From Kangiella sediminilitoris (lineage in GTDB: Bacteria; Pseudomonadota; Gammaproteobacteria; Enterobacterales; Kangiellaceae), in contig NZ_CP012418.1 in assembly GCF_001708405.1 (NCBI RefSeq), positions 1,240,001 to 1,304,000 of the forward strand: DNA of 64,000 nucleotides. The letters run 5' to 3'. Shown here one piece after another: positions 2,198 through 12,682 of the stretch; position 1 is the stretch's first letter, and each line of letters begins with the position of its first letter. Below the pieces are notes generated by a model. The model was not told where the DNA came from. It ran no database searches and saw only the letters and a program-made list of their open reading frames with translations. Position numbers and translations under genes: made by a program.

Positions 2198-2211
2198 TTG
2201 ACCTACGTCAA
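2198..2211 (+). promoter_or_regulatory. FNR/ANR-type operator of the hsp20 promoter
   Basis: TTGACCTACGTCAA is a perfect 5-4-5 palindrome of the FNR/CRP-family type seen at ANR/DNR/FixK-like sites. A CATACT hexamer at 2234-2239 predicts transcription from about 2246, so the box centre falls exactly at -41.5, the class II activating position. No good -35 hexamer is visible, as expected for an activator-dependent promoter. The gene starts at 2291 behind a strong GGAGGTG ribosome-binding site (2278-2284). Confidence 0.7.
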
Positions 2212-2290
2212 TACGGCTATGTTGGAAACGATCCATACTTCTTTTTGGACGGTATTTGTCTAATAGATGAATCATTTGGAGGTGTAACTT

Positions 2291-2710
2291 ATGGAACTAT
2301 CAAAACGGACACCCTTTAAGGACTTAGAAGCTATTTATGATCGTTTCTTCCCAACTAACAATGGCTTCCTAAGTTTTGATCAGAACGACTGGTCACCAAT
2401 GGTTGATATCGATGAAGATGAAAAGGAATTCACGGTCAAGGCTGAGTTACCTGAAGTGAAAAAGGAAGATATTAAGGTTTCGATCAACAATCATGTACTG
2501 ACGCTCACTGGCGTGCGTAAATTCGAGAAAAGCGATAAGAAGCATCATCGTACTGAGCGCTTCTATGGTCATTTTTCGAGAAGTTTCTCTTTACCTGATA
2601 ATGTCGATGAGCAGTCTATCAAGGCCGAGCATAAGGACGGGATGCTTTATCTTCATCTGCTGAAAAAGCCAGGAGAAGCCAGCAAGTCAATTAACGTTGA
2701 TATTTCTTAG
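2291..2710 (+). CDS. Small heat shock protein, Hsp20/alpha-crystallin family
   Basis: This is a 139-residue ATP-independent holdase chaperone that binds unfolding proteins in large oligomers. The alpha-crystallin domain spans roughly residues 35-127: it opens with WSPMVDIDEDEKEF, continues through AELPEVKKEDIKVSI and closes with the diagnostic A-x-x-x-D-G-M-L-Y-L motif at 112-121. A short C-terminal I-N-V element is a candidate for the I-x-I tail used in oligomer assembly. The N-terminal arm is short. Start and ribosome-binding site are unambiguous. The upstream FNR-type box suggests induction by oxygen limitation rather than, or as well as, heat; I saw no clear sigma-32 promoter. A terminator hairpin follows, so it is monocistronic. 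Confidence 0.95.
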   Translation: MELSKRTPFKDLEAIYDRFFPTNNGFLSFDQNDWSPMVDIDEDEKEFTVKAELPEVKKEDIKVSINNHVLTLTGVRKFEKSDKKHHRTERFYGHFSRSFSLPDNVDEQSIKAEHKDGMLYLHLLKKPGEASKSINVDIS

Positions 2711-2724
2711 CATAAGAGATCTGT

Positions 2725-2760
2725 AAGGGCGTGTGATTACTTCACCCGCCCTTCTTTTAT
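2725..2760 (+). terminator. Terminator after hsp20
   Basis: AAGGGCG (2725-2731) pairs with CGCCCTT (2747-2753), extended by an inner GTGA/TCAC pairing with one-base bulges, followed by a T-rich run. It lies between the hsp20 stop and the end of the convergent small membrane protein gene. Confidence 0.75.
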
Positions 2761-2770
2761 TGACGACTTA

Positions 2771-3043
2771 TCAAGCGTCGTTAGACGACATTTTGTTGTA
2801 TATGGTGCCTATTAACCAGGCTGTAATCCCACCACATACCGACCATGCGAACATTCCTACGAAAAATCCTGATAATGTTAAATGCCAGCCCATTACCATT
2901 TCAGAGGCTTTACCGTGCATCATATCTGCAAATACGGCCATGGTCATGCCTGGAAGTAACCAGACCAAAACAACACATAAAATCCAGATAACGGCTAAAC
3001 CTAATGCGGTAGCAATGCCTAGTCGTATAGCATTTACTTTCAT
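2771..3043 (-). CDS. Small two-helix membrane protein, DUF5676-like
   Basis: This protein of about 90 residues has two clear membrane segments (roughly residues 8-32 and 54-82) joined by a short loop with ADMMHGKASE. The opening MKVNAIRLGIATALGLAVIW and the final AWLIGTIYNK are like proteins annotated as DUF5676 family membrane proteins; this is recognition by eye and the function of that family is unknown to me. Two ATGs are adjacent; the second (3043) is preferred because AAGGAG then lies 6 bases upstream instead of 3. An overlapping plus-strand open frame lacks these features. An FNR-type box and TATAAT lie upstream, pointing to control shared with the hsp20 and phosphorylase genes. Confidence 0.75.
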   Translation of the reverse strand: MKVNAIRLGIATALGLAVIWILCVVLVWLLPGMTMAVFADMMHGKASEMVMGWHLTLSGFFVGMFAWSVCGGITAWLIGTIYNKMSSNDA

Positions 3044-3105
3044 CATAGTCTCCTTACTAACGTCGACTCATTCTTAGTATTATATTCCTATCCATATGAA
3101 TTGGT

Positions 3106-3119
3106 TTGACGTAGGTCAT
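3106..3119 (-). promoter_or_regulatory. FNR/ANR-type operator for the DUF5676-like gene
   Basis: Read on the minus strand this is ATGACCTACGTCAA, one base from a perfect palindrome and nearly identical to the box at 2198. A perfect TATAAT on the minus strand (3084-3079) predicts a start near 3072, putting the box centre at about -40.5. The leader is about 28 bases. Confidence 0.65.
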
Positions 3120-3136
3120 TTTATGAGCAACTATTT

Positions 3137-3150
3137 TTGATTTACATCAA
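3137..3150 (+). promoter_or_regulatory. Consensus FNR/ANR box for the phosphorylase operon
   Basis: TTGATTTACATCAA matches the FNR/ANR consensus TTGAT-N4-ATCAA perfectly. TATACC at 3172-3177 gives a start near 3184 and a centre at about -40.5 (class II). The box serves the plus-strand operon beginning at 3212 and lies back-to-back with the minus-strand box at 3106, centre to centre 31 bp. Confidence 0.75.
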
Positions 3151-3211
3151 CAATTTATAAGTATTCTGTGTTATACCTAGATATTCACTATGTGTATAAG
3201 GAGATGTCATT

Positions 3212-3502
3212 ATGAGTGAAGAAAAACGTAAAAAAGAGGCTCAGGAGCTTTATGAGCGAATCAAGGCCGAGCGTGACGATCTTAAACTTCAAGCTCACTT
3301 AGCTAAAGCCGAACTTAGAGACAAATGGGTCGAAGCCGAACACCAGTGGGAGTCTTTTTCAACCAAATTCAGAGCTATAAGCAAAGGTGCTGGTAAAGCC
3401 GCAGATGATGTCGGCGAGGGCTTCCATCAGTTAGGTAAGGAATTAAAACATGCCTATGAGGACTTAAAGCAAAGTATTAAGTCTAGCAAGCTATCTAATT
3501 GA
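3212..3502 (+). CDS. Small charged helical protein of unknown function
   Basis: I do not recognise this 96-residue protein. It is almost entirely charged and helix-forming, with a Lys/Glu-rich heptad-like N-terminal half (residues 1-50, likely coiled coil), a small Gly/Ala-rich stretch (GAGKAADDVGEG, about 59-70) and an amphipathic C-terminal helix. There is no signal peptide, membrane segment or Cys. It looks like a soluble structural or adaptor protein, possibly a stress-associated helix-bundle protein. A strong AAGGAGAT ribosome-binding site (3198-3205) precedes the ATG. It is first in the FNR-box operon, 13 bases ahead of the phosphorylase gene, which lacks its own good ribosome-binding site. 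Confidence 0.8.
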   Translation: MSEEKRKKEAQELYERIKAERDDLKLQAHLAKAELRDKWVEAEHQWESFSTKFRAISKGAGKAADDVGEGFHQLGKELKHAYEDLKQSIKSSKLSN

Positions 3503-3515
3503 TTATTAAAAAAAT

Positions 3516-5030
3516 ATGAAGCAACCTGAGACTACCCTTCCCCTTGCATATCGCTTAGGGATTGATACCGGTCATGAGCCAGTAATTTTCCTCAGAAGCG
3601 AGTCTCCAGTAGCTCGCTCCGAGGGATTTGAGTCAATGTCTCGGATTACGGTAGAGGTTAATGACAGGAAGTTACTTGCAACACTGATGATAGTATATAG
3701 CGAATTGCTTGAGCCCGGTCACGCTGGCCTCTCGGAAAAGGCATGGCGCGAATTGAAGGTTAAACCTGGAGAACGCCTTAAGCTCAGTCATGCACCCCAG
3801 ATAGAATCCCTCGCTTTTATCAGAGCAAAAGCCTTTGGACACAAACTCAATCGCAAACAATATAACTGCGTTATTAGAGATATAGTCGATGGACTCTATA
3901 TGAATGTACATCTGGCCTCCTTCATCACCGCTTGCGCTAACGGTGGTCTTGAGCCTGATGAAATCGTGTATTTAACCGAAGCCATGGTTAACACTGGCCA
4001 GCGTCTGGAGTGGGATGCTGACATTGTGGTTGATAAACACTGTATTGGTGGTCTGCCGGGGAACCGAACCTCCCCTATTGTTGTTTCTATTCTGGCTGCT
4101 AACGGTTTAACCATCCCTAAAACATCATCTCGAGCAATCACATCCCCGGCTGGTACTGCTGATGTGATGGAAACCATGACTAATGTCGACTTCACATTTG
4201 AAGACTTGAAAAGCATCGTTAAAGAAACCGGAGGTTGTCTCGCCTGGGGAGGTTCGGTCAGTCTAAGCCCGTCAGATGATATTTTAATCACGGTAGAAAA
4301 AGCCTTGGATATAGACTTTGAAGGACAACTAATCGCATCAATTTTATCAAAAAAAATTGCGGCTGGCTCCGATAGAGTTCTTATTGATATCCCGGTGGGC
4401 AAAACTGCAAAAATGAGAAGTAAAGCTGCTGCTGAAGCTCTATCTGAGCAGCTTGTGAATACCGGTAAAAAGCTTGGAATTATAGTAAAGGTGGTATTAA
4501 CCGATGGTTCTCAGCCTATAGGCAATGGTGTTGGGCCAGCTCTTGAAGCACAAGATGTTCTTTCTGTATTACGTAATGAGCCTCATGCACCGCAGGATTT
4601 AAAAGAAAGGGCCTTGAGTCTCGCTGGTAATCTTTTAGAGCTAGCGGAGCATGTGCCTGTAGGTAGAGGTTATAAACTGGCATTAGATACACTTAAATCA
4701 GGGCAGGCGTGCAAGAAATTCATGCAGATCTGCATGTCTCAGGGTGGTTTCTGTGAGCCACGAACTTCGAGCTGCACCTATGCTATAAATACCAAGACTA
4801 AAGCTGTTATTAGTGAAATCGACAACCGTCAGCTTGCTCGTCTGGCCAAATTGGCCGGTGCTCCGGCAGATAAAACGGCGGGGATTTACCTTCATGCAAA
4901 GGTCGGTGACACCGTGGATGTTGATCAGCCCCTCTTAACGATTCATGCAGACTCGCCCGGCGAACTTGAGTATGCATTAAACTATTATCTGGAACACTCC
5001 GATATGATTTTATTGAAGGATGTGCAATGA
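3516..5030 (+). CDS. Putative thymidine phosphorylase, type 2 / AMP phosphorylase-like
   Basis: This 504-residue protein belongs to the nucleoside/nucleotide phosphorylase superfamily, in the long group often named putative thymidine phosphorylase type 2, which is close to archaeal AMP phosphorylase. An N-terminal extension of about 85 residues (RLGIDTGHEPVIFLR, SRITVEV) precedes the phosphorylase core. The phosphate-binding segment reads KHCIGGLPGNRT (174-185), the form seen in AMP phosphorylases, and not the KHSTGGVGD form of ordinary thymidine or pyrimidine phosphorylases. I therefore favour cleavage of AMP or another NMP with phosphate to base plus ribose-1,5-bisphosphate, though this is inferred. 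Length and start fit homologues; no Shine-Dalgarno is visible, so coupling to the upstream gene is likely. Its stop overlaps the next start (ATGA). Confidence 0.88.
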   Translation: MKQPETTLPLAYRLGIDTGHEPVIFLRSESPVARSEGFESMSRITVEVNDRKLLATLMIVYSELLEPGHAGLSEKAWRELKVKPGERLKLSHAPQIESLAFIRAKAFGHKLNRKQYNCVIRDIVDGLYMNVHLASFITACANGGLEPDEIVYLTEAMVNTGQRLEWDADIVVDKHCIGGLPGNRTSPIVVSILAANGLTIPKTSSRAITSPAGTADVMETMTNVDFTFEDLKSIVKETGGCLAWGGSVSLSPSDDILITVEKALDIDFEGQLIASILSKKIAAGSDRVLIDIPVGKTAKMRSKAAAEALSEQLVNTGKKLGIIVKVVLTDGSQPIGNGVGPALEAQDVLSVLRNEPHAPQDLKERALSLAGNLLELAEHVPVGRGYKLALDTLKSGQACKKFMQICMSQGGFCEPRTSSCTYAINTKTKAVISEIDNRQLARLAKLAGAPADKTAGIYLHAKVGDTVDVDQPLLTIHADSPGELEYALNYYLEHSDMILLKDVQ

Positions 5031-5914
5031 ATCCATTATTTCTCGACCTGTCCGGAAATCTTAATTTGTCCGCAAAAATACGTCATAGAATCGGTGCTGA
5101 TCTGGGTGAGTTACATATAAGAAGTTTTCCTGACGGTGAGTCCAGCATGGCGTTAAAAAGTGAAGTACATGGCCGTTCCATCGTCATCATGACTGACCTG
5201 TCTCATCCCAATGAAAAAGTACTTCCTCTGTTCCTTTTGACTAGAATTTTAAGAGAGAGGAAAGCTCAAGAAATCATATTAATTGCTCCCTACCTGCCTT
5301 ATATGCGTCAGGATGCTGAATTTAAACTTGGCGAATCTAAGTTGGCCAAGCATTTTGCATCATTGATGAGTGACCATGTTGATAAATTGATTACCGTCGA
5401 ACCACATTTACACCGGATCCACGATCTGAATGACATATTCACCATCCCTACAGCGAATGCACATAGCAGACAGTCAGTTGTGGAGTGGATCATCAAACAT
5501 ATTGATAACCCAGTCATTATTGGACCTGATATGGAAAGCACTCAGTGGGTCGCCCCCGTTGCTGGAGAGTTGAGTCAGCCTTATTTAGTGGCTGAAAAAA
5601 TGAGAAAAGGCGATAAAGATGTTTCTATATTTATTGATGGACTCAATGATTACCGAGAGTACACGCCAGTAGTCATCGATGACATCATTTCCACCGGATT
5701 TACAATGGCAGGAATTGGGGAGCATTTAAAATTTGAGGGTTTTGATAATAGTGTATGTATTGCTACCCATGCCATTTTTGTTGAAGACGCATATTTAAGA
5801 CTGACTCAATCGCAATTTGCTCAAGTCGTTACTACTAACACAATTCCTCATATGTCCAACCAGGTTGATGTCTCAGAGGAAATCAGTCGAGCTTATGCCA
5901 GTCTGGTAACATAA
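5027..5914 (+). CDS. Ribose-phosphate pyrophosphokinase-like protein (PRPP synthetase)
   Basis: This 295-residue protein is related to PRPP synthetase, which makes phosphoribosyl pyrophosphate from ribose-5-phosphate and ATP. PYLPYMRQD (88-96) is the ATP-site signature, EPHLHRIHDL (125-134) carries the metal-binding histidine region, and VVIDDIISTGFT (215-226) is the PRPP-binding loop. The flexible-loop motif reads EKMRKGDKDV rather than the KRR form of housekeeping bacterial Prs, and the chain is shorter than the usual 310-320 residues, closer to archaeal-like enzymes. It is probably not the housekeeping prs. The start codon overlaps the phosphorylase stop by four bases, so the two are translationally coupled, supporting a joint role in nucleotide salvage. 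Confidence 0.85.
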   Translation: MNPLFLDLSGNLNLSAKIRHRIGADLGELHIRSFPDGESSMALKSEVHGRSIVIMTDLSHPNEKVLPLFLLTRILRERKAQEIILIAPYLPYMRQDAEFKLGESKLAKHFASLMSDHVDKLITVEPHLHRIHDLNDIFTIPTANAHSRQSVVEWIIKHIDNPVIIGPDMESTQWVAPVAGELSQPYLVAEKMRKGDKDVSIFIDGLNDYREYTPVVIDDIISTGFTMAGIGEHLKFEGFDNSVCIATHAIFVEDAYLRLTQSQFAQVVTTNTIPHMSNQVDVSEEISRAYASLVT

Positions 5915-5939
5915 ATTATCGTTACATTAGATAGAAGAA

Positions 5940-8594
5940 ATGAACTCAGGAAATGTATCCATAAAGCAGCTAGCCACTCTTGATAACTCAGAGTTACTGA
6001 CTGTTTTACAGAGTAAGGCCAGTGAAGGACTTACAGCCGTTGAGGTTGATGAACGGCAAAAGCAATATGGTCCGAATGACATCATTCAACAACAACGTAC
6101 CTCCCTACTCCAGATCATTCTCAATCAGTTCACTAATCCAATTGCCTGGCTATTGTTAATTGCCGTTTTCATTTCATTAGTTTTCCAAGATTATTTAGAA
6201 ATGTACGCCATCATAGCAGTCTTGTTCATCAATGCTTCTATTGGCGCAATAACTGAGTTTAAGGCACTTGATTCCATGGAGGCTCTAAGGAAGATGAGCG
6301 AAGCCCACGCCGTGGTCCTCCGCAATGGTAATAAAGTAACGATTAATGCTTCAGAGCTGGTTCCGGGCGATATCGTACTACTTAATGCTGGTGATCTAAT
6401 CACAGCTGATATGTGTCTGCTTGATTCAAATAAGCTACAGGCTGACGAGTCACCCTTAACAGGCGAGTCATTACCCATAGCCAAAAGTCATAGCCCCACT
6501 CTGCTCTCTGATGACATACAAAATAGTCGAATACTGTATAAAGGAACGGCTGTATTAAGGGGGACGGCTACTGCCGTGGTCGTGAATACCGGTACGCATA
6601 CAGAACTAGGGAAAATTAGCACTCTGATATCTGAAGCAGCACCGGAGCGTTCACCGTTAGAAGAGCGAATACAGCAGTTAAGCGGGCAGTTAATCAAGCT
6701 GACGTTAGGTCTTATTGTGGTGATTACCATACTCGGACTTATTAAAGCAGAGTCTTACCTCGAACTTGTTAAAACCAGTATTGCTCTGGCGGTCGCGGCT
6801 ATTCCAGAGGGCATGCTGATAGTGACGACTTTGGTTTTAGCACGCTCAATGCTCAAGCTGGCCCAAAAAAATGTCTTGATTGAACGTTTGTCAGCTGTTG
6901 AAACACTGGGATCTACGACTCTGATTATGACCGATAAAACTGGTACTTTAACCGAAAATAAAATGTTGGTTACTGAAGTCCTGATTGAAGTTAGTGAGTT
7001 TGTGGTGCTTGATAAAACCGCCCCAATAACTAGTCACTCTACTTTGGAAAAGCTGATGGAAATTGCGGTACTCTGCAACAATGCTGACAGAGACCAAGAC
7101 AGTGGTGACCCAATTGAGTTGGCTTTGTTAAAAATGGCGTCTGGGTCAATTCCAGATCGTATTAAAAATATAGAACAATTTAAAAAAGTGGCAGAACTAC
7201 CTTTCGACCCGGATATCCGGCTAATGATAGTAAGCCATGAGTTGCCAAAGAATGATCACTGCCAGGCCTCTATCAAGGGCGCTCCTGAGAGTATTCTCGA
7301 ACATTGTAGCCATTACCTTAAGGGTAATGAACAGATAGCGTTAACAGAATCATTGAAAACACAATGGCTGGCTAACGTAAATCAAATGGCAGAGTCAGGT
7401 TTGCGTGTGCTGGCTCTTGGCTATCGCCTGGATACTAAAGCAACAGCAGACATTACTAATAACTTCTGCCTGGTCGGAGTCGTTGGCATGGAAGACCCTC
7501 TAAGGGAGACCGTTCCTGAAGCGATTGAGCAATGCCACAATGCGGGTATTCGTATCATAATGGTAACAGGAGATAATGGTTTAACCGCCAATAAAATTGC
7601 ACAGAAAGCACAATTAGTTAAGTCTGGAAAGGACTGTCACACCATGACGGGCATCGAGTTAAAAGCGCTCACTGATGTCGGAAATACAGAGAAAAATGAT
7701 GAGCTTTATGATGTTGATGTTTTTTCTCGGGTCAGTCCTAGACAAAAATATGATTTAGCTGAGTTCTATCAGTCACGGGATCATGTGGTGGCGATGACTG
7801 GTGATGGTGTCAACGATGGTCCCGCATTGAAAAACGCTGATATCGGTATAGCGATGGGGATTCGAGGTACTGAAGTTGCTAAGCAAGCTGCCGATATGGT
7901 TTTACTGGACGACTCGTTCCCAGCTATTGCTGAAGCAATTGCTCAGGGGCGCTCAGTTTTTAATAATATTCGTAAGTTCGTACTTTACCTGCTCTCCTGT
8001 AATTTAAGCGAAATTTTAGTCGTATCGGTAGCCGTTCTATCTGGATTTCCAATTCCTCTTCTGCCGCTGCAAATTCTATTCTTAAACCTTGTAACTGATG
8101 TCTTCCCTGCACTTGCCCTTGGTGCCTGTAAAGGGGAAACTGAAGAAATGGAGAAGCCACCGCGAGAGCAATCAGAGCGTATCATTGAGTCTAAACACTG
8201 GCAAAAAATAGTCACTCATGCACTGATGCTTACGACCCTGGTTTTTTCTGCCTTTCTAATTGATCTCTACTATTTTGAATCTTCATCTGATCATGCGGTA
8301 ACGGTTGCCTTTTTAACCTTGGCAATTTCACAATTGTTACACGTCTTTAATATGCGCGAAGATAATAAGACTTTCTGGAACAATGAAGTTATTCGTAACG
8401 GTTACGTTTGGATCGCATTGGGGATTTGTGCTGTTCTGATATTAGTAGCGGTTTACGTCCCTTTATTATCCCGTGTTTTAAATATTGTGGATATCGATGG
8501 TGCTGCCTGGTTGCTGGTATTGGCTTTCAGTTCAGTCACAGTACTGGTATACACTTTTACCAACATGCTTCAGCGGTTTATTCAACCACATTAG
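5940..8594 (+). CDS. Cation-translocating P-type ATPase (P2 type, Ca/Mg-like)
   Basis: This is an 884-residue integral membrane ion pump. It has an N-terminal cation-ATPase domain (about 8-60), paired helices at about 65-105, the actuator domain with TGES (174-177), PEGM in transmembrane helix 4 (289-292), the phosphorylation site DKTGTLT (Asp332), a nucleotide-binding domain with KGAPES, and the hinge motif MTGDGVNDGPALK. Further membrane helices fill the C-terminal quarter. The PEG motif and lack of N-terminal metal-binding CxxC domains place it with P2-type Ca/Mg/Na-K-like pumps such as mycobacterial CtpF, not with heavy-metal pumps. The ion is unknown. It follows the PRPP synthetase by 25 bases and is likely the last gene of the FNR-controlled operon; its tail overlaps the convergent ldhA by 17 bases. 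Confidence 0.92.
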   Translation: MNSGNVSIKQLATLDNSELLTVLQSKASEGLTAVEVDERQKQYGPNDIIQQQRTSLLQIILNQFTNPIAWLLLIAVFISLVFQDYLEMYAIIAVLFINASIGAITEFKALDSMEALRKMSEAHAVVLRNGNKVTINASELVPGDIVLLNAGDLITADMCLLDSNKLQADESPLTGESLPIAKSHSPTLLSDDIQNSRILYKGTAVLRGTATAVVVNTGTHTELGKISTLISEAAPERSPLEERIQQLSGQLIKLTLGLIVVITILGLIKAESYLELVKTSIALAVAAIPEGMLIVTTLVLARSMLKLAQKNVLIERLSAVETLGSTTLIMTDKTGTLTENKMLVTEVLIEVSEFVVLDKTAPITSHSTLEKLMEIAVLCNNADRDQDSGDPIELALLKMASGSIPDRIKNIEQFKKVAELPFDPDIRLMIVSHELPKNDHCQASIKGAPESILEHCSHYLKGNEQIALTESLKTQWLANVNQMAESGLRVLALGYRLDTKATADITNNFCLVGVVGMEDPLRETVPEAIEQCHNAGIRIIMVTGDNGLTANKIAQKAQLVKSGKDCHTMTGIELKALTDVGNTEKNDELYDVDVFSRVSPRQKYDLAEFYQSRDHVVAMTGDGVNDGPALKNADIGIAMGIRGTEVAKQAADMVLLDDSFPAIAEAIAQGRSVFNNIRKFVLYLLSCNLSEILVVSVAVLSGFPIPLLPLQILFLNLVTDVFPALALGACKGETEEMEKPPREQSERIIESKHWQKIVTHALMLTTLVFSAFLIDLYYFESSSDHAVTVAFLTLAISQLLHVFNMREDNKTFWNNEVIRNGYVWIALGICAVLILVAVYVPLLSRVLNIVDIDGAAWLLVLAFSSVTVLVYTFTNMLQRFIQPH

Positions 8595-9567
8595 CTGCCT
8601 GAGCACCCAACGATAGGAAGTCTTTAGCGTTTAAAAGTGTCGTATGGGCAATATTGTTTATTGAGTCACTTGTATAAAAAGCAATATGAGGAGTGATAAT
8701 CACATTATCCATGGAAGTCAGACGATTAAAGTTATCGTCAGCTATTGGCTCATGATGCTGCTGAAAGAAGAGCCCTTTCTCTTTATCGTAAACATCAAGA
8801 CCGGCATAACGTACCTTTTGTGATTCTAAAGCATCCAGCAAGTCGTCAGTCTGAATAACTCTACCTCGAGACGTGTTTAAAATAGTAACGCCCTCTTTCA
8901 TCAATTGCAGAGTATCTTTATTAATCAGCTGTTGTGTGGATTCGTTTAAGGGGCAATGAAGACTGATTATGTCCGAACGTTCATATAATTCATCCAGCGG
9001 GACCCATTCCAGGTCAGGCGTTTCAAGCCGATTAATCACTGGATCATAACCAAGCACTTTGCATCCAAAACCTCTCATAATCCTAGCAAAGGCAGTGCCT
9101 ATATCACCGACCCCAATGACACCAACGGTTTTATCATAAACGCTCTCGCCCAGGTTGCCATTTAGTTTAAAGTTTTGTCGCTGTAATTGCTGTCGTAAGA
9201 CAAATATTTTTCTATAAAGACATAATAAAAGTGTTACGGCATGTTCAGCAACCGATTGCGGCGAGTAAGCTGGGACATTCATAACAGTAATGCCTAGTCG
9301 CTTTGCAGCCTTCAAATCAACGTGGTCATAGCCTGTAGAGCGTAGAAGAATAAGCTTAATTCCACAGGAGGCTGCAAGAGCAAGAAGAGAATCATCTAAT
9401 GGGTTATTGGCAAAAATGCTGATGGCGTCAGCTTGCGAGAGCAGTCTGGCATTATCCTCACTGAAATTATCATTAACCAGAGATAACTCAAAATTAAACA
9501 ACTCTTGGTTCTTACTTTTGTAAATCTGCTGTTCAAAATCTTGAACTCCAAAGAATATGATATGCAT
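8578..9567 (-). CDS. ldhA: D-lactate dehydrogenase, fermentative (2-hydroxyacid dehydrogenase family)
   Basis: This 329-residue NAD-dependent enzyme reduces pyruvate to D-lactate, regenerating NAD under oxygen limitation. The cofactor-binding motif is GVGDIG (152-157), and the catalytic Arg234, Glu263 and His294 are present. LRSTGYDHVDL, GLDVYDKEKGLFF and ITPHIAFYT are typical of the LdhA subgroup and separate it from phosphoglycerate and erythronate-phosphate dehydrogenases. An AGGGA ribosome-binding site sits 5 bases before the ATG. A TATAAT on the minus strand (9604-9599) and an FNR-like box at 9626-9639 lie upstream at class II spacing, which fits an anaerobically induced fermentation gene. 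Tail-to-tail with the P-type ATPase gene. Confidence 0.9.
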   Translation of the reverse strand: MHIIFFGVQDFEQQIYKSKNQELFNFELSLVNDNFSEDNARLLSQADAISIFANNPLDDSLLALAASCGIKLILLRSTGYDHVDLKAAKRLGITVMNVPAYSPQSVAEHAVTLLLCLYRKIFVLRQQLQRQNFKLNGNLGESVYDKTVGVIGVGDIGTAFARIMRGFGCKVLGYDPVINRLETPDLEWVPLDELYERSDIISLHCPLNESTQQLINKDTLQLMKEGVTILNTSRGRVIQTDDLLDALESQKVRYAGLDVYDKEKGLFFQQHHEPIADDNFNRLTSMDNVIITPHIAFYTSDSINNIAHTTLLNAKDFLSLGAQAANVVE

Positions 9568-9625
9568 AACAGTCCCTGATTAATCAAACTTCTTAGTCAT
9601 TATAGATGACTTTAACCCATATTTG

Positions 9626-9639
9626 TTGACTCTTATCAA
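9626..9639. promoter_or_regulatory. FNR/ANR-like box between ldhA and the Na/Pi symporter gene
   Basis: TTGACTCTTATCAA fits TTGAY-N4-RTCAA. Leftward, TATAAT at 9604-9599 gives a start near 9592 (box centre about -40.5). Rightward, GATAGT at 9662-9667 gives a start near 9674 (centre -41.5). One box could therefore activate both divergent genes; the leftward promoter has the better -10. Confidence 0.6.
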
Positions 9640-9708
9640 TAAACTAGAGGGCTAAAACAGTGATAGTGTTATATTATAAAATAACCCAATAAAGAGTATT
9701 CTGACGTC

Positions 9709-11304
9709 ATGCTTGATTTGGACTGGTTAGCTTTAGTTTCAGGGATAGGTATATTTCTCTGGGGAATGTCTATGGTTGAAGCTAACCTGACAAAACTGGC
9801 TTCCGGTAAACTTCATTACTTTATAGGGCGCTGGACCAATAATACCTTATCAGCAGTTATAACAGGTGCAGTTTGTACGGCTCTAATCCAGAGCAGCTCT
9901 TTGTTAACTTTAATCGTCCTGGCACTGGCGAGCTCAAAATTACTCAACTTAAAGCAAGCAATCGGCGTTATATTTGGCGCGAACCTGGGAACTACAGCTA
10001 CCGGCTGGTTGGTTACATTACTCGGATTTAAAGTTAGTTTAGGCGACGCTGCCATATATCTGATTGGAGTAACAGCGTTAGCACGTCTATTTTTTAGAGA
10101 GAGAGCTCGTTATACCCTAATTCTCTCCCTGATTATTAGTATTGGTTTAATCTTATTCAGCCTTGATCTGATAAAAAATTCCACCCTTGGTATCAGTGAA
10201 ACAATAACCATCAGTACCTCCGGTGGCGCTGCACCAATTGGCTTCTTTATTACTGGTCTGATCCTGGCGGTTTTATTCCAATCAAGTTCAGCTGTCATGA
10301 TAATGACTTTGAGTGCAGCTAATGCCGGTATCATTAATTTGGAAAGTGCCATAGCTGTGGTTATCGGAGCTGACTTAGGTACCACCAGCACTGCTGCGCT
10401 GGGAAGTATCAACGGCGCTAAAATTAAAAAGCAACTTGCCCTGTCCCACTTTAGTTTTAATGTTGTGATATCAATGACTGGGTTATTTTTGATACTGCCT
10501 CAAGTTCCTACCATTCTGGCCTGGCTTAACTGGGATGATCCTCTTCTGCCAATAGTTACCTTCCATAGCATGATGAATGGCTTCGGTATTCTTTTATTTA
10601 CACCTTTTATCAACCCATTTGTAAGATTTATTTCGCAGAGGTTTAGTGAGCAGCCAAACACGGTAGAGGCTCGCTTCTCACTCATTGCATTAAATGCACC
10701 TGCGGTGGCTTTGCATCAATTAAGAGATGAGACTCTGCATTTTTTAAAGTCAGTCGCTAAATTTAATCAACACTGCCTTAAAGGCTATGACAGTTATATA
10801 AATGAATACCTGGTTCTAAAAAAAGCAGAAGGTATTTTCATTGATACCTCCCATAAATTTTCAAAACAGGTGATTAATGATCAGCAAAGTAAAGATATTT
10901 TCTGTCTGTTATCGACGGTCAGAGATGGCATCTATTCTGCAAAATCGTTAAAGGATATTGTACCTGACCTGGAAGTGCTGGATATACAGAAGCTTTTAGA
11001 CCAAAAGGATGTGGTGCCTTTATATCAAGAAGTGAACAGCTTTTTCCATGATGAAGCGGAACAGTTGGATCCAAATGATAATTATCAGTGGCAGGATGTA
11101 ACGGAATATCAGGAAAATTTTTATCATAAATTCAAATCGACTCAAGAGAGCCTCTTCAGTAATGAAGTGGCGCAAGATATGCCCATTGAGCAAATCTCTA
11201 CCCTGCTCAATATTAACAAACAGCTGTATACATCCAGCAAATACTTTATCAGTGCAATAAATAGTATTAGTCTAATAGGAAAGGAGGAACCACATGAGGA
11301 TTAG
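9709..11304 (+). CDS. Na/phosphate cotransporter family protein with PhoU-like C-terminal domain
   Basis: This 531-residue protein belongs to the PNaS (NptA/YjbB-type) family, which moves phosphate across the inner membrane together with sodium. Two inverted repeats each carry the family's QSSS motif (61-64 and 191-194) and a G-A-N/D-L-G-T-T segment (90-96 and 220-226). The membrane part ends near residue 320. The remaining 210 residues are helical and cytoplasmic, like a PhoU domain that may gate or sense phosphate. Direction of transport in vivo is not certain; some relatives export phosphate. The ribosome-binding site is weak. The stop overlaps the beta-CASP RNase start by 11 bases. Confidence 0.9.
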   Translation: MLDLDWLALVSGIGIFLWGMSMVEANLTKLASGKLHYFIGRWTNNTLSAVITGAVCTALIQSSSLLTLIVLALASSKLLNLKQAIGVIFGANLGTTATGWLVTLLGFKVSLGDAAIYLIGVTALARLFFRERARYTLILSLIISIGLILFSLDLIKNSTLGISETITISTSGGAAPIGFFITGLILAVLFQSSSAVMIMTLSAANAGIINLESAIAVVIGADLGTTSTAALGSINGAKIKKQLALSHFSFNVVISMTGLFLILPQVPTILAWLNWDDPLLPIVTFHSMMNGFGILLFTPFINPFVRFISQRFSEQPNTVEARFSLIALNAPAVALHQLRDETLHFLKSVAKFNQHCLKGYDSYINEYLVLKKAEGIFIDTSHKFSKQVINDQQSKDIFCLLSTVRDGIYSAKSLKDIVPDLEVLDIQKLLDQKDVVPLYQEVNSFFHDEAEQLDPNDNYQWQDVTEYQENFYHKFKSTQESLFSNEVAQDMPIEQISTLLNINKQLYTSSKYFISAINSISLIGKEEPHED

Positions 11305-12682
11305 TATTCATGGAGCTGCAGAAGAAGTTACTGGCTCATGCTCAGAAATTGAGACAAACAATCGTCGTTTTGTGATCGACTGCGGTCTAATACAGGGCTC
11401 TTGGAGAAATGAAAAAAGAAACTCTGATCCATTCCCTTTTGAACCAGCTGAGATAGATGCAGTCATCCTGACTCACGGCCATATTGATCACAGTGGACGA
11501 CTTCCCCTTCTGGTTAAGTCTGGTTATAAAGGTCCCATATATTGTCATGAAGCGAACAGAGAGTTACTCGAAATATTACTAATCGATAGTGCTTATTTGC
11601 AGGAGAAAGAAGCTGAATGGAATAACAAAAAGCGACTGAGGAAGGGATTAGAGGAAATTGAACCACTCTATACTCGTCAGGATGTCCCCTCCGTTCTGAG
11701 TCAACTAGAGCCCATACAGTACCGTGAAATGATTCAGCTTGATAAGGATATCAGCTTTCAATTAAGAAACGCTGGACATATTTTAGGGTCATCCCATGTT
11801 GAATTTACTACTCACGAGCAGGGTCAGAAAAAAACGGTAGTCTTCAGCGGAGATATAGGTAATCCCGGAGCACCTATTCAGCAGGATCCGGATATAGATG
11901 GACAGCCTGATCTGGTTATCATGGAATCCACTTATGGCAATAGGGATCATACCAGTTGGGATTCTTCAATTAATGAGTTAAGAGACGCTATTAAACATGC
12001 TGCCGAGGACGGAGGTAATGTATTAATACCTGCCTTTGCCGTAGGCCGTACGCAAACCATACTTCACTACTTCGCGAAATACTATCATGACTGGGGACTT
12101 GAGAAGTGGGATATTTTTCTTGATAGTCCAATGGCGATCAGAGTGACAGAAGCTTATGAACGATACGCACATCTATATAAAAAAGAAACGCAACCATTCT
12201 GGTCAAAAGGCGCTTTGAAAAGTTATATCCCCAAACTGCATTTCACGGCCGATACTCAGGAATCAATGGCTCTTAATTCAATAAAAAGTGGCGCTATAAT
12301 TATCGCTGGTAGCGGCATGATGACTGGCGGTCGCATTAAACATCATATGAAACACAATTTATGGCGAAGTCAATGCGATCTCATTATCACAGGGTTTCAG
12401 CCTGAAGGCACAGTTGGCAGACGTATTATTGATAAGGCACCTTTTATTAAACTGTGGGGAGAGTCAGTAAGAGTTGCAGCTTCTGTCCATACCATAGGAG
12501 GTTTTTCTGCTCACGCAGGACAAACCGAGTTACTAAAATGGTATCAGTGCTTCAGCAATCAACCTCCAGTAATATTAAATCATGGCTCAAAGTCGACCAT
12601 AAAGGAGTTCAAAGAGTACTTACAAAAACATACCCCTGCCGATATCACAATTGCCAGTAGAGGTCAAAGCTTTACTTTGTAA
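11294..12682 (+). CDS. MBL-fold beta-CASP RNA-processing nuclease
   Basis: This 462-residue protein belongs to the CPSF73/Ysh1-like beta-CASP branch of the metallo-beta-lactamase fold, whose members cut or chew RNA. The zinc motif is THGHIDHSG (His61, His63, Asp65, His66), followed by NAGHILGSSH and SGDIGNP. The beta-CASP insert carries PAFAVGRTQ, SGMMTGGRIKHH, and the C-terminal motifs GFSAHAG and NHGSKST. A KH domain, as in RNase J, is absent. The start has a strong GGAGG 6 bases upstream and overlaps the symporter gene. Relatives are often called RNA-specific exonucleases of this fold; endo- versus exonuclease activity is not decidable here. Confidence 0.88.
   Translation: MRISIHGAAEEVTGSCSEIETNNRRFVIDCGLIQGSWRNEKRNSDPFPFEPAEIDAVILTHGHIDHSGRLPLLVKSGYKGPIYCHEANRELLEILLIDSAYLQEKEAEWNNKKRLRKGLEEIEPLYTRQDVPSVLSQLEPIQYREMIQLDKDISFQLRNAGHILGSSHVEFTTHEQGQKKTVVFSGDIGNPGAPIQQDPDIDGQPDLVIMESTYGNRDHTSWDSSINELRDAIKHAAEDGGNVLIPAFAVGRTQTILHYFAKYYHDWGLEKWDIFLDSPMAIRVTEAYERYAHLYKKETQPFWSKGALKSYIPKLHFTADTQESMALNSIKSGAIIIAGSGMMTGGRIKHHMKHNLWRSQCDLIITGFQPEGTVGRRIIDKAPFIKLWGESVRVAASVHTIGGFSAHAGQTELLKWYQCFSNQPPVILNHGSKSTIKEFKEYLQKHTPADITIASRGQSFTL

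Follow-up and report, generated by a model that had tools for sequence, protein, structure and literature searches.

A probable nucleotide-scavenging module among the FNR-type boxes of Kangiella sediminilitoris

What do a small heat shock protein, a nucleotide phosphorylase, a paralogue of phosphoribosyl pyrophosphate (PRPP) synthase, a cation pump, a dehydrogenase, a phosphate transporter and a ribonuclease have to do with one another? In Kangiella sediminilitoris their genes lie side by side between positions 2198 and 12682 of the 64,000-base stretch analysed here (the window, bases 1240001-1304000 of a 2,496,140-base single-contig genome), and among them stand four sequences that resemble FNR-binding sites. 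An earlier note on this DNA took the whole set for one low-oxygen programme. Our answer is narrower. We think the locus is probably the local part of an ordinary FNR regulon whose core product, judged from sequence, would be a nucleotide-scavenging module. The phosphorylase, the PRPP-synthase (PRS) paralogue, the Na/Pi transporter and the beta-CASP ribonuclease do occur together in the genus, and a like-named operon is under FixK2 elsewhere; the heat shock protein and the dehydrogenase are not conserved neighbours, and the PRPP step of the programme is doubtful.

The boxes come first. The pattern TTGAY-N4-RTCAA is found exactly at 2198-2211, 3137-3150 and 9626-9639; of the four palindromes originally claimed, the one at 3106-3119 (TTGACGTAGGTCAT) is imperfect, with one mismatch. 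None is assigned a strand, and each lies at the class II FNR distance (about -41.5, counted from predicted start points) from a -10-like hexamer. Box 2198 faces the Hsp20 gene, with CATACT at 2234-2239 reading rightward; it also has a leftward hexamer, TATATG (a 4/6 match), and the start of a LysE gene 213 bases away, so placed that the box may control it too. The imperfect box faces the leftward gene of a DUF5676 protein through a perfect minus-strand TATAAT (3084-3079), and box 3137 faces the phosphorylase operon with a rightward TATACC. Box 9626 sits between divergent genes. Because it has -10-like hexamers on both sides, TATAAT leftward to a 2-hydroxyacid dehydrogenase and GATAGT rightward to the Na/Pi and beta-CASP genes, it is able to serve the dehydrogenase and the pair alike. 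At least five predicted promoters are faced by the four boxes. That the boxes lie some 40-41 bp from start points and control nearly every promoter of the locus had been proposed before, and the predicted positions agree with this; the list of targets had omitted DUF5676 and the 96-residue protein whose gene comes first after 3137.

Could such short sequences be there by chance? The window has 19 sites with at most one mismatch; shuffled sequence gives 11.4 +/- 3.3, with 19 reached in 3 of 100 cases. Most of the isolated mismatched sites in the rest of the window can therefore be put down to chance. Three exact boxes inside 7.4 kb are, taken alone, unremarkable, since scattering 41 sites at random produces such a group 23% of the time. 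A genome-wide scan for the exact pattern (the earlier note had recommended one with a position matrix) points to a regulon: it finds 41 boxes, whereas the pattern read in reverse occurs 9 times. We inspected the surroundings of all 41, calling intergenic whatever lies outside reading frames of at least 100 residues. Seventeen are intergenic; as intergenic sequence makes up 9% of 102 kb of the genome, chance would place 3.7 there (p 3e-8). On the 23 gene-facing sides of these intergenic boxes the match to TATAAT at class II distance is 3.6 of 6, compared with 2.4 on 59 other sides (p 4e-5). Seven exact boxes crowd into genome positions 1217405-1249626, a density equalled in 11 of 20,000 random placements, and intergenic exact boxes precede genes recognised from sequence as hemN, ccoN, cydA-like, ompW, nrdD and nnrS. 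Chance as the whole account of the boxes was ruled out by the 41 against 9, the intergenic excess, the hexamer spacing and this cluster.

And the regulator? Four proteins of the genome match HTH_Crp_2, the weakest of them resembling a GntR-type protein. The FNR homologue that the earlier note had counted on is encoded at 2047272-2047979, with the CxxCx5C motif and a further cysteine making up the four cysteines of an Fe-S regulator. A second CRP-family gene, Dnr-like and without the CxxCx5C motif, lies at 1221622-1222335 beside nrdD- and nrdG-like genes, about 18 kb ahead of the window and inside the box-rich stretch. The boxes fit either of the two. The genome upstream of the window, at 1217405-1229000, holds four exact boxes around the nrdD/nrdG-like genes, the Dnr-like regulator and genes resembling those of an outer-membrane protein, phenylalanine hydroxylase and HPPD.

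With the boxes, their spacing and a regulator gene all present, we infer a response to low oxygen. As oxygen falls, FNR (or its Dnr-like relative) would bind the four boxes and activate at least five class II promoters. RNA would be cut to 5'-nucleotides by the beta-CASP enzyme, joined in relatives by an EEP nuclease, and these nucleoside monophosphates (NMPs) would be split by the AMP-phosphorylase-like enzyme with phosphate from the Na/Pi transporter. That would give the base and ribose-1,5-bisphosphate, and the PRS paralogue would handle the resulting sugar phosphate, with PRPP or ribose-5-phosphate as its product. Each activity of this module is predicted from the family to which the protein belongs.

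The genes themselves are tightly packed. Behind box 3137, on the plus strand, runs a series of four: a charged protein of 96 residues (3212-3502), 55-64% identical to its counterparts in six other genus members and without a Pfam or NCBIfam match in profile searches; after a 13-base gap, the 504-residue AMP-phosphorylase-like enzyme (3516-5030); overlapping it by 4 bases, the PRS paralogue (5027-5914); and, 25 bases further on, a P2-type pump. The phosphorylase passes NF003338 (666 bits, cut-off 434) and TIGR02645 (601 bits, cut-off 435), and in an alignment it matches the 20-residue active-site stretch of the solved Thermococcus enzyme 4ga5. Rightward of box 9626, also on the plus strand, the reading frames of a 531-residue Na/Pi cotransporter family protein (9709-11304) and a metallo-beta-lactamase/beta-CASP ribonuclease-like protein with an RMMBL domain (11294-12682) overlap by 11 bases. 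The transporter matches PF02690 at 158 bits and, with 125 bits against a cut-off of 50, belongs to the Na/Pi symporter family NF037997. The ribonuclease-like protein exceeds the cut-offs of PF00753, PF10996 and PF07521, carries the HxHxDH motif as THGHIDH and aligns with its best solved relative, RNase TTHA0252, over residues 1-437 at 317 bits, which is near full length.

Do these genes keep company elsewhere? Within the genus, the phosphorylase is present in 7 of 20 genomes at 63-100% identity, one copy (G380) being a fragment at a contig end; at E<=0.001 there are matches in 10 of the 20, three of them of only 20-21 bits. The beta-CASP protein has matches in eight, seven at 61-100% identity and one of only 19 bits in a 55% complete genome. 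Carriers of the one and carriers of the other are the same 7 genomes, and in all 7 (the window, L152, L137, L139, L141, L143 and L145) an exact box precedes the small-protein gene. In five of them (L137, L139, L141, L143, and L145/L146, two contigs of one genome) the box heads an operon of the small protein, an EEP-family nuclease (PF03372), the phosphorylase, PRS, Na/Pi and beta-CASP. The closest named relative found, Kangiella shandongensis (L020; L152), whose phosphorylase is 79% identical, has the window's arrangement, with exact boxes at both of the matching places and, next to DUF5676, a box with one mismatch. Four genus members also have a second locus (L138, L140, L142, L144) with a paralogous phosphorylase, PRS, beta-CASP, a 152-residue protein, DUF5676, acetate kinase and phosphoketolase; near it, exact boxes stand before a metal-ATPase operon, two in L142 and in L144, one in L138 and none in L140.

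Outside the genus, six genomes of the wider family match the beta-CASP protein, one of them weakly, and of the five loci examined (L147-L151) the phosphorylase shares the stretch in L147 and L151 and is absent from the stretch in the other three. L147:1-12123, from another genus and a 73% complete genome, brings together beta-CASP, the phosphorylase, USP and a 2-hydroxyacid dehydrogenase with three exact boxes, and its neighbours are an FNR-family gene, a second CRP-family gene and nrdD-like and ompW-like genes. L148:439-7733 has beta-CASP and a P2-type pump beside NAD-linked-hydrogenase-like genes.

On a broader scale the phosphorylase and PRS are a steady pair. Among 369 gammaproteobacteria, NF003338 is over its cut-off in 76 and PRS (NF005537, E<=1e-50) is found in 80; the two co-occur in 72 (Fisher p 5e-62). 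Of the eight genomes with PRS only, two (L197 and L199) have the expected place of the phosphorylase falling off the contig, L199 with beta-CASP beside PRS. In another of the eight, L196, scored as phosphorylase-negative, a weak fragment of the phosphorylase (99 residues, 32% identical) lies at 5474-5767, upstream of the PRS paralogue. We examined 60 gammaproteobacterial loci, from 79 rows over cut-off that include the row of the genome itself. Their neighbours were PRS in 58 (in one, 4.7 kb upstream), beta-CASP in 14, the pump in 7, the dehydrogenase in 3, Hsp20 in 2 and Na/Pi in 0, counts that are lower bounds because some stretches are short contigs. Across the phylum, phosphorylase matches at E<=1e-120 occur in 37 of 398 genomes; these gave 39 rows outside the genome itself, of which 35 were added, three were already included and one (G054) was left out, for 95 loci in total outside the genus. 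Beta-CASP adjoins the phosphorylase in 25 of the 95. As for the conserved neighbourhood that the earlier note had suggested looking for, phosphorylase, PRS, Na/Pi and beta-CASP make one in the carrier members of the genus, and Hsp20, the dehydrogenase and Na/Pi are rare companions elsewhere.

The PRS paralogue is the puzzle of the set. It passes the cut-offs of NF005537 and TIGR01251 and keeps the PRPP-synthase active-site elements YMRQD (the RQD of the ATP site), EKMR (the K-x-R loop, an element of that active site) and DDIISTGFT (the ribose-5-phosphate, or R5P, loop). RQD and the R5P loop are named as active-site elements in the available part of a paper on the E. coli PRPP synthase. What the window's protein does not have is the PDxGG/PDxGA loop: it reads PDMES, compared with PDAGG in human PRPS, PDKGA in the best-scoring solved chain, 1u9y, and PDVGG in the genome's own housekeeping Prs. 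In PRPP synthase the PDxGG loop binds pyrophosphate. The same is seen throughout 100 PRS relatives taken from phosphorylase loci (near relatives included, 4 of them under 250 residues): all 100 retain RQD and 95 the R5P-loop pattern, PDxG[GA] occurs in 0, and PDxE[SA] occurs in all 100, as PDxESxQW in 85 and in other PDxE[SA] forms in the remaining 15. In profile searches of the genome, Rubisco (PF00016), phosphoketolase and ribose-1,5-bisphosphate isomerase (TIGR00511) had no match; nor did any PhnN pass its cut-off, the one weak TIGR02322 match reaching 58 of 156 bits. With no such exit for ribose-1,5-bisphosphate over cut-off, the paired PRS paralogue is the natural candidate.

How else might the locus be read? 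The earlier note had the PRS paralogue making PRPP, so that in low oxygen the ribose of RNA would be turned back into PRPP and serve base salvage. The PRS cut-offs, the RQD motif and the R5P loop all favour this; against it stand the 0 of 100 for PDxG[GA] and 100 of 100 for PDxE[SA] in the paired proteins, the canonical Prs encoded elsewhere in the genome and the want of a PhnN over cut-off. Moreover, ribose-1,5-bisphosphate already bears a phosphate at C1 and is not a substrate of canonical PRPP synthase. The altered loop and the separate housekeeping Prs make the PRPP step doubtful, and we regard this version as possible, with more doubt than belief. The cue may be a different one as well. 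Dnr-type regulators read the same box as FNR, the Dnr-like gene at 1221622-1222335 lies within the box-rich stretch and an nnrS-like gene has a box, so one could suppose that the boxes are served mainly by this Dnr/CRP-like protein and answer to nitric oxide or another signal, not to oxygen. The presence of the four-cysteine FNR tells against that, as do the boxes before hemN, ccoN and cydA-like genes, the classic targets of oxygen-sensing FNR, and we give the idea little weight. A plainer proposal is co-location without coupling: stress genes independently controlled by FNR would have gathered in one accessory stretch, and the phosphorylase pair carries out routine NMP turnover unrelated to the nuclease. 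It draws on the rarity of Hsp20, dehydrogenase, pump and Na/Pi beside the phosphorylase elsewhere (2, 3, 7 and 0 of 60 loci), on the 57 of 60 loci without an exact box upstream and on the 46 of 60 without beta-CASP, some of these in stretches ended by contig ends. Yet nucleases, phosphorylase, PRS and Na/Pi form a single operon in five genus members; phosphorylase and beta-CASP are jointly present in 7 and jointly absent in 13 of the 20 genus genomes (18-21-bit matches, and one 55% complete non-carrier, set aside); and, of the 95 loci outside the genus, 25 have the two side by side. We consider mere co-location unlikely.

The reading that we prefer, an FNR regulon with nucleotide scavenging at the core of its local part, and still more the wider programme of the earlier note, have to be set against several results that weigh on the other side. 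Twenty-four of the 41 exact boxes lie inside reading frames, more than the whole reversed control of 9. The phosphorylase misses the AMP-phosphorylase equivalog TIGR03327, at 507 of 535 bits, and members of the Na/Pi family can export phosphate as well. In K. shandongensis the Hsp20 match has no box of at most one mismatch upstream, its start being uncertain since only residues 65-139 align. PRS is wanting at E<=1e-50 in 4 of the 76 phosphorylase genomes; it has no match in 2 of the 60 loci (with the 4.7 kb separation in another) and none in the stretch of L147; and Hsp20, the dehydrogenase and Na/Pi are not conserved neighbours of the phosphorylase. Nor is the box. In the 300 bases ahead of the phosphorylase, 3 of the 60 loci have an exact box and 8 one with at most one mismatch, for shuffled expectations of 0.08 and 1.9 and reversed-pattern counts of 0 and 2. 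In the phylum-wide set, we looked for a box of at most one mismatch in the 400 bases ahead of the operon and found it in 9 of the 25 loci where beta-CASP is adjacent (2 of them exact), in 6 of the 66 that have no beta-CASP (again 2 exact) and in 0 of the 4 where it is distant, with reversed controls of 0, 2 and 0 for adjacent, absent and distant; 4 of the 9 boxed loci (L187, L188, L190, L191) belong to one genus. Box control thus goes with the RNase-linked form, an association to which few lineages contribute, and it falls well short of being general. The data do not support FNR control as broadly conserved. From outside comes one more point: in the available part of PMC8575079, Pseudomonas aeruginosa IbpA is counted outside the Anr regulon.

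The remaining genes of the locus are best seen as co-regulated stress and redox neighbours, outside one conserved machine. They are the 139-residue Hsp20/alpha-crystallin small heat shock protein (2291-2710, plus strand; PF00011, 91 bits), the 91-residue two-TM (transmembrane) DUF5676 protein (2771-3046, minus strand; PF18926, 77 bits), the 884-residue P2-type cation ATPase that ends the four-gene run (5940-8594, plus strand) and the D-isomer-specific 2-hydroxyacid dehydrogenase (8578-9567, minus strand). The dehydrogenase is D-lactate/VanH-like, with all its NCBIfam scores under cut-off; for D-lactate dehydrogenase itself (NF006374) it reaches 224 of 356 bits. The names given earlier to the proteins of the locus were right at the level of family; dehydrogenase and pump pass no specific NCBIfam equivalog cut-off.

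What, then, does it all mean? FNR control of stress genes is textbook, and regulation at this locus is of a known kind. What deserves following is the altered PRS paralogue, together with the combination peculiar to the genus. An operon that unites the phosphorylase with two nucleases and a phosphate transporter yields a testable proposal, that RNA would be taken to base and sugar bisphosphate. The altered loop raises the question of where ribose-1,5-bisphosphate goes in bacteria without its isomerase or Rubisco. A bolder suggestion, speculative and in our view rather improbable, is that the PRS paralogue that accompanies AMP-phosphorylase-like enzymes in bacteria is a new enzyme on ribose-1,5-bisphosphate rather than a PRPP synthase. 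Having Glu-Ser or Glu-Ala in place of the glycines that bind pyrophosphate, it would move the C1 phosphate as a monophosphate to AMP or ADP and release ribose-5-phosphate; NMP phosphorolysis would thereby let the cell use inorganic phosphate to regain energy from RNA once respiration has stopped. If that were true, the acetate kinase and phosphoketolase of the second genus locus could convert the pentose further, to acetyl phosphate and ATP.

The earlier note knew of no described system of this kind. In the open-licence papers that we searched by enzyme name, the gene set is not treated as a system and we found no reason given for the activation of a phosphorylase-PRS-RNase operon by low-oxygen regulators; the core operon itself does appear in published tables. 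Among known systems, RNase TTHA0252 resembles the beta-CASP protein in sequence. Archaeal NMP degradation, by AMP phosphorylase, ribose-1,5-bisphosphate isomerase and Rubisco (structures 4ga4-4ga6), uses the same phosphorylase family with the same active-site stretch; unlike the archaeal pathway, this genome has no PF00016 or TIGR00511 match and pairs the enzyme with a PRS paralogue instead. In P. aeruginosa a P-type cation ATPase, PA1429, is listed with hemN, nrdD, ackA and ccoN2 in a table opening with an Anr-regulon subset, in the part of PMC8087004 available, and again in a table of anoxia-responsive genes in that of PMC8575079; the likeness to the window's ATPase is one of family and does not imply orthology. 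Closest of all is Bradyrhizobium diazoefficiens. Its genes bll3117-bll3116-bll3115, which form one predicted operon, encode a thymidine phosphorylase family protein, a ribose-phosphate pyrophosphokinase and an MBL fold metallo-hydrolase, and are among the microoxia-induced genes in the accessible part of PMC6515984. In a single table of PMC9104804, where both of its mentions of bll3117 in the part available are found, bll3117 and bll3115 are lower in a fixK2 mutant and a box, ATGATCTGGGTCAA, is placed at -74. Na/Pi transporter, EEP nuclease, 96-residue protein and P2 pump are all missing from this predicted operon of three genes, and its regulator is FixK2. The product types and the FNR-type box are those of the window, a likeness judged by product names, and two of our loci, L188 and L191, carry the published box before the same gene order.

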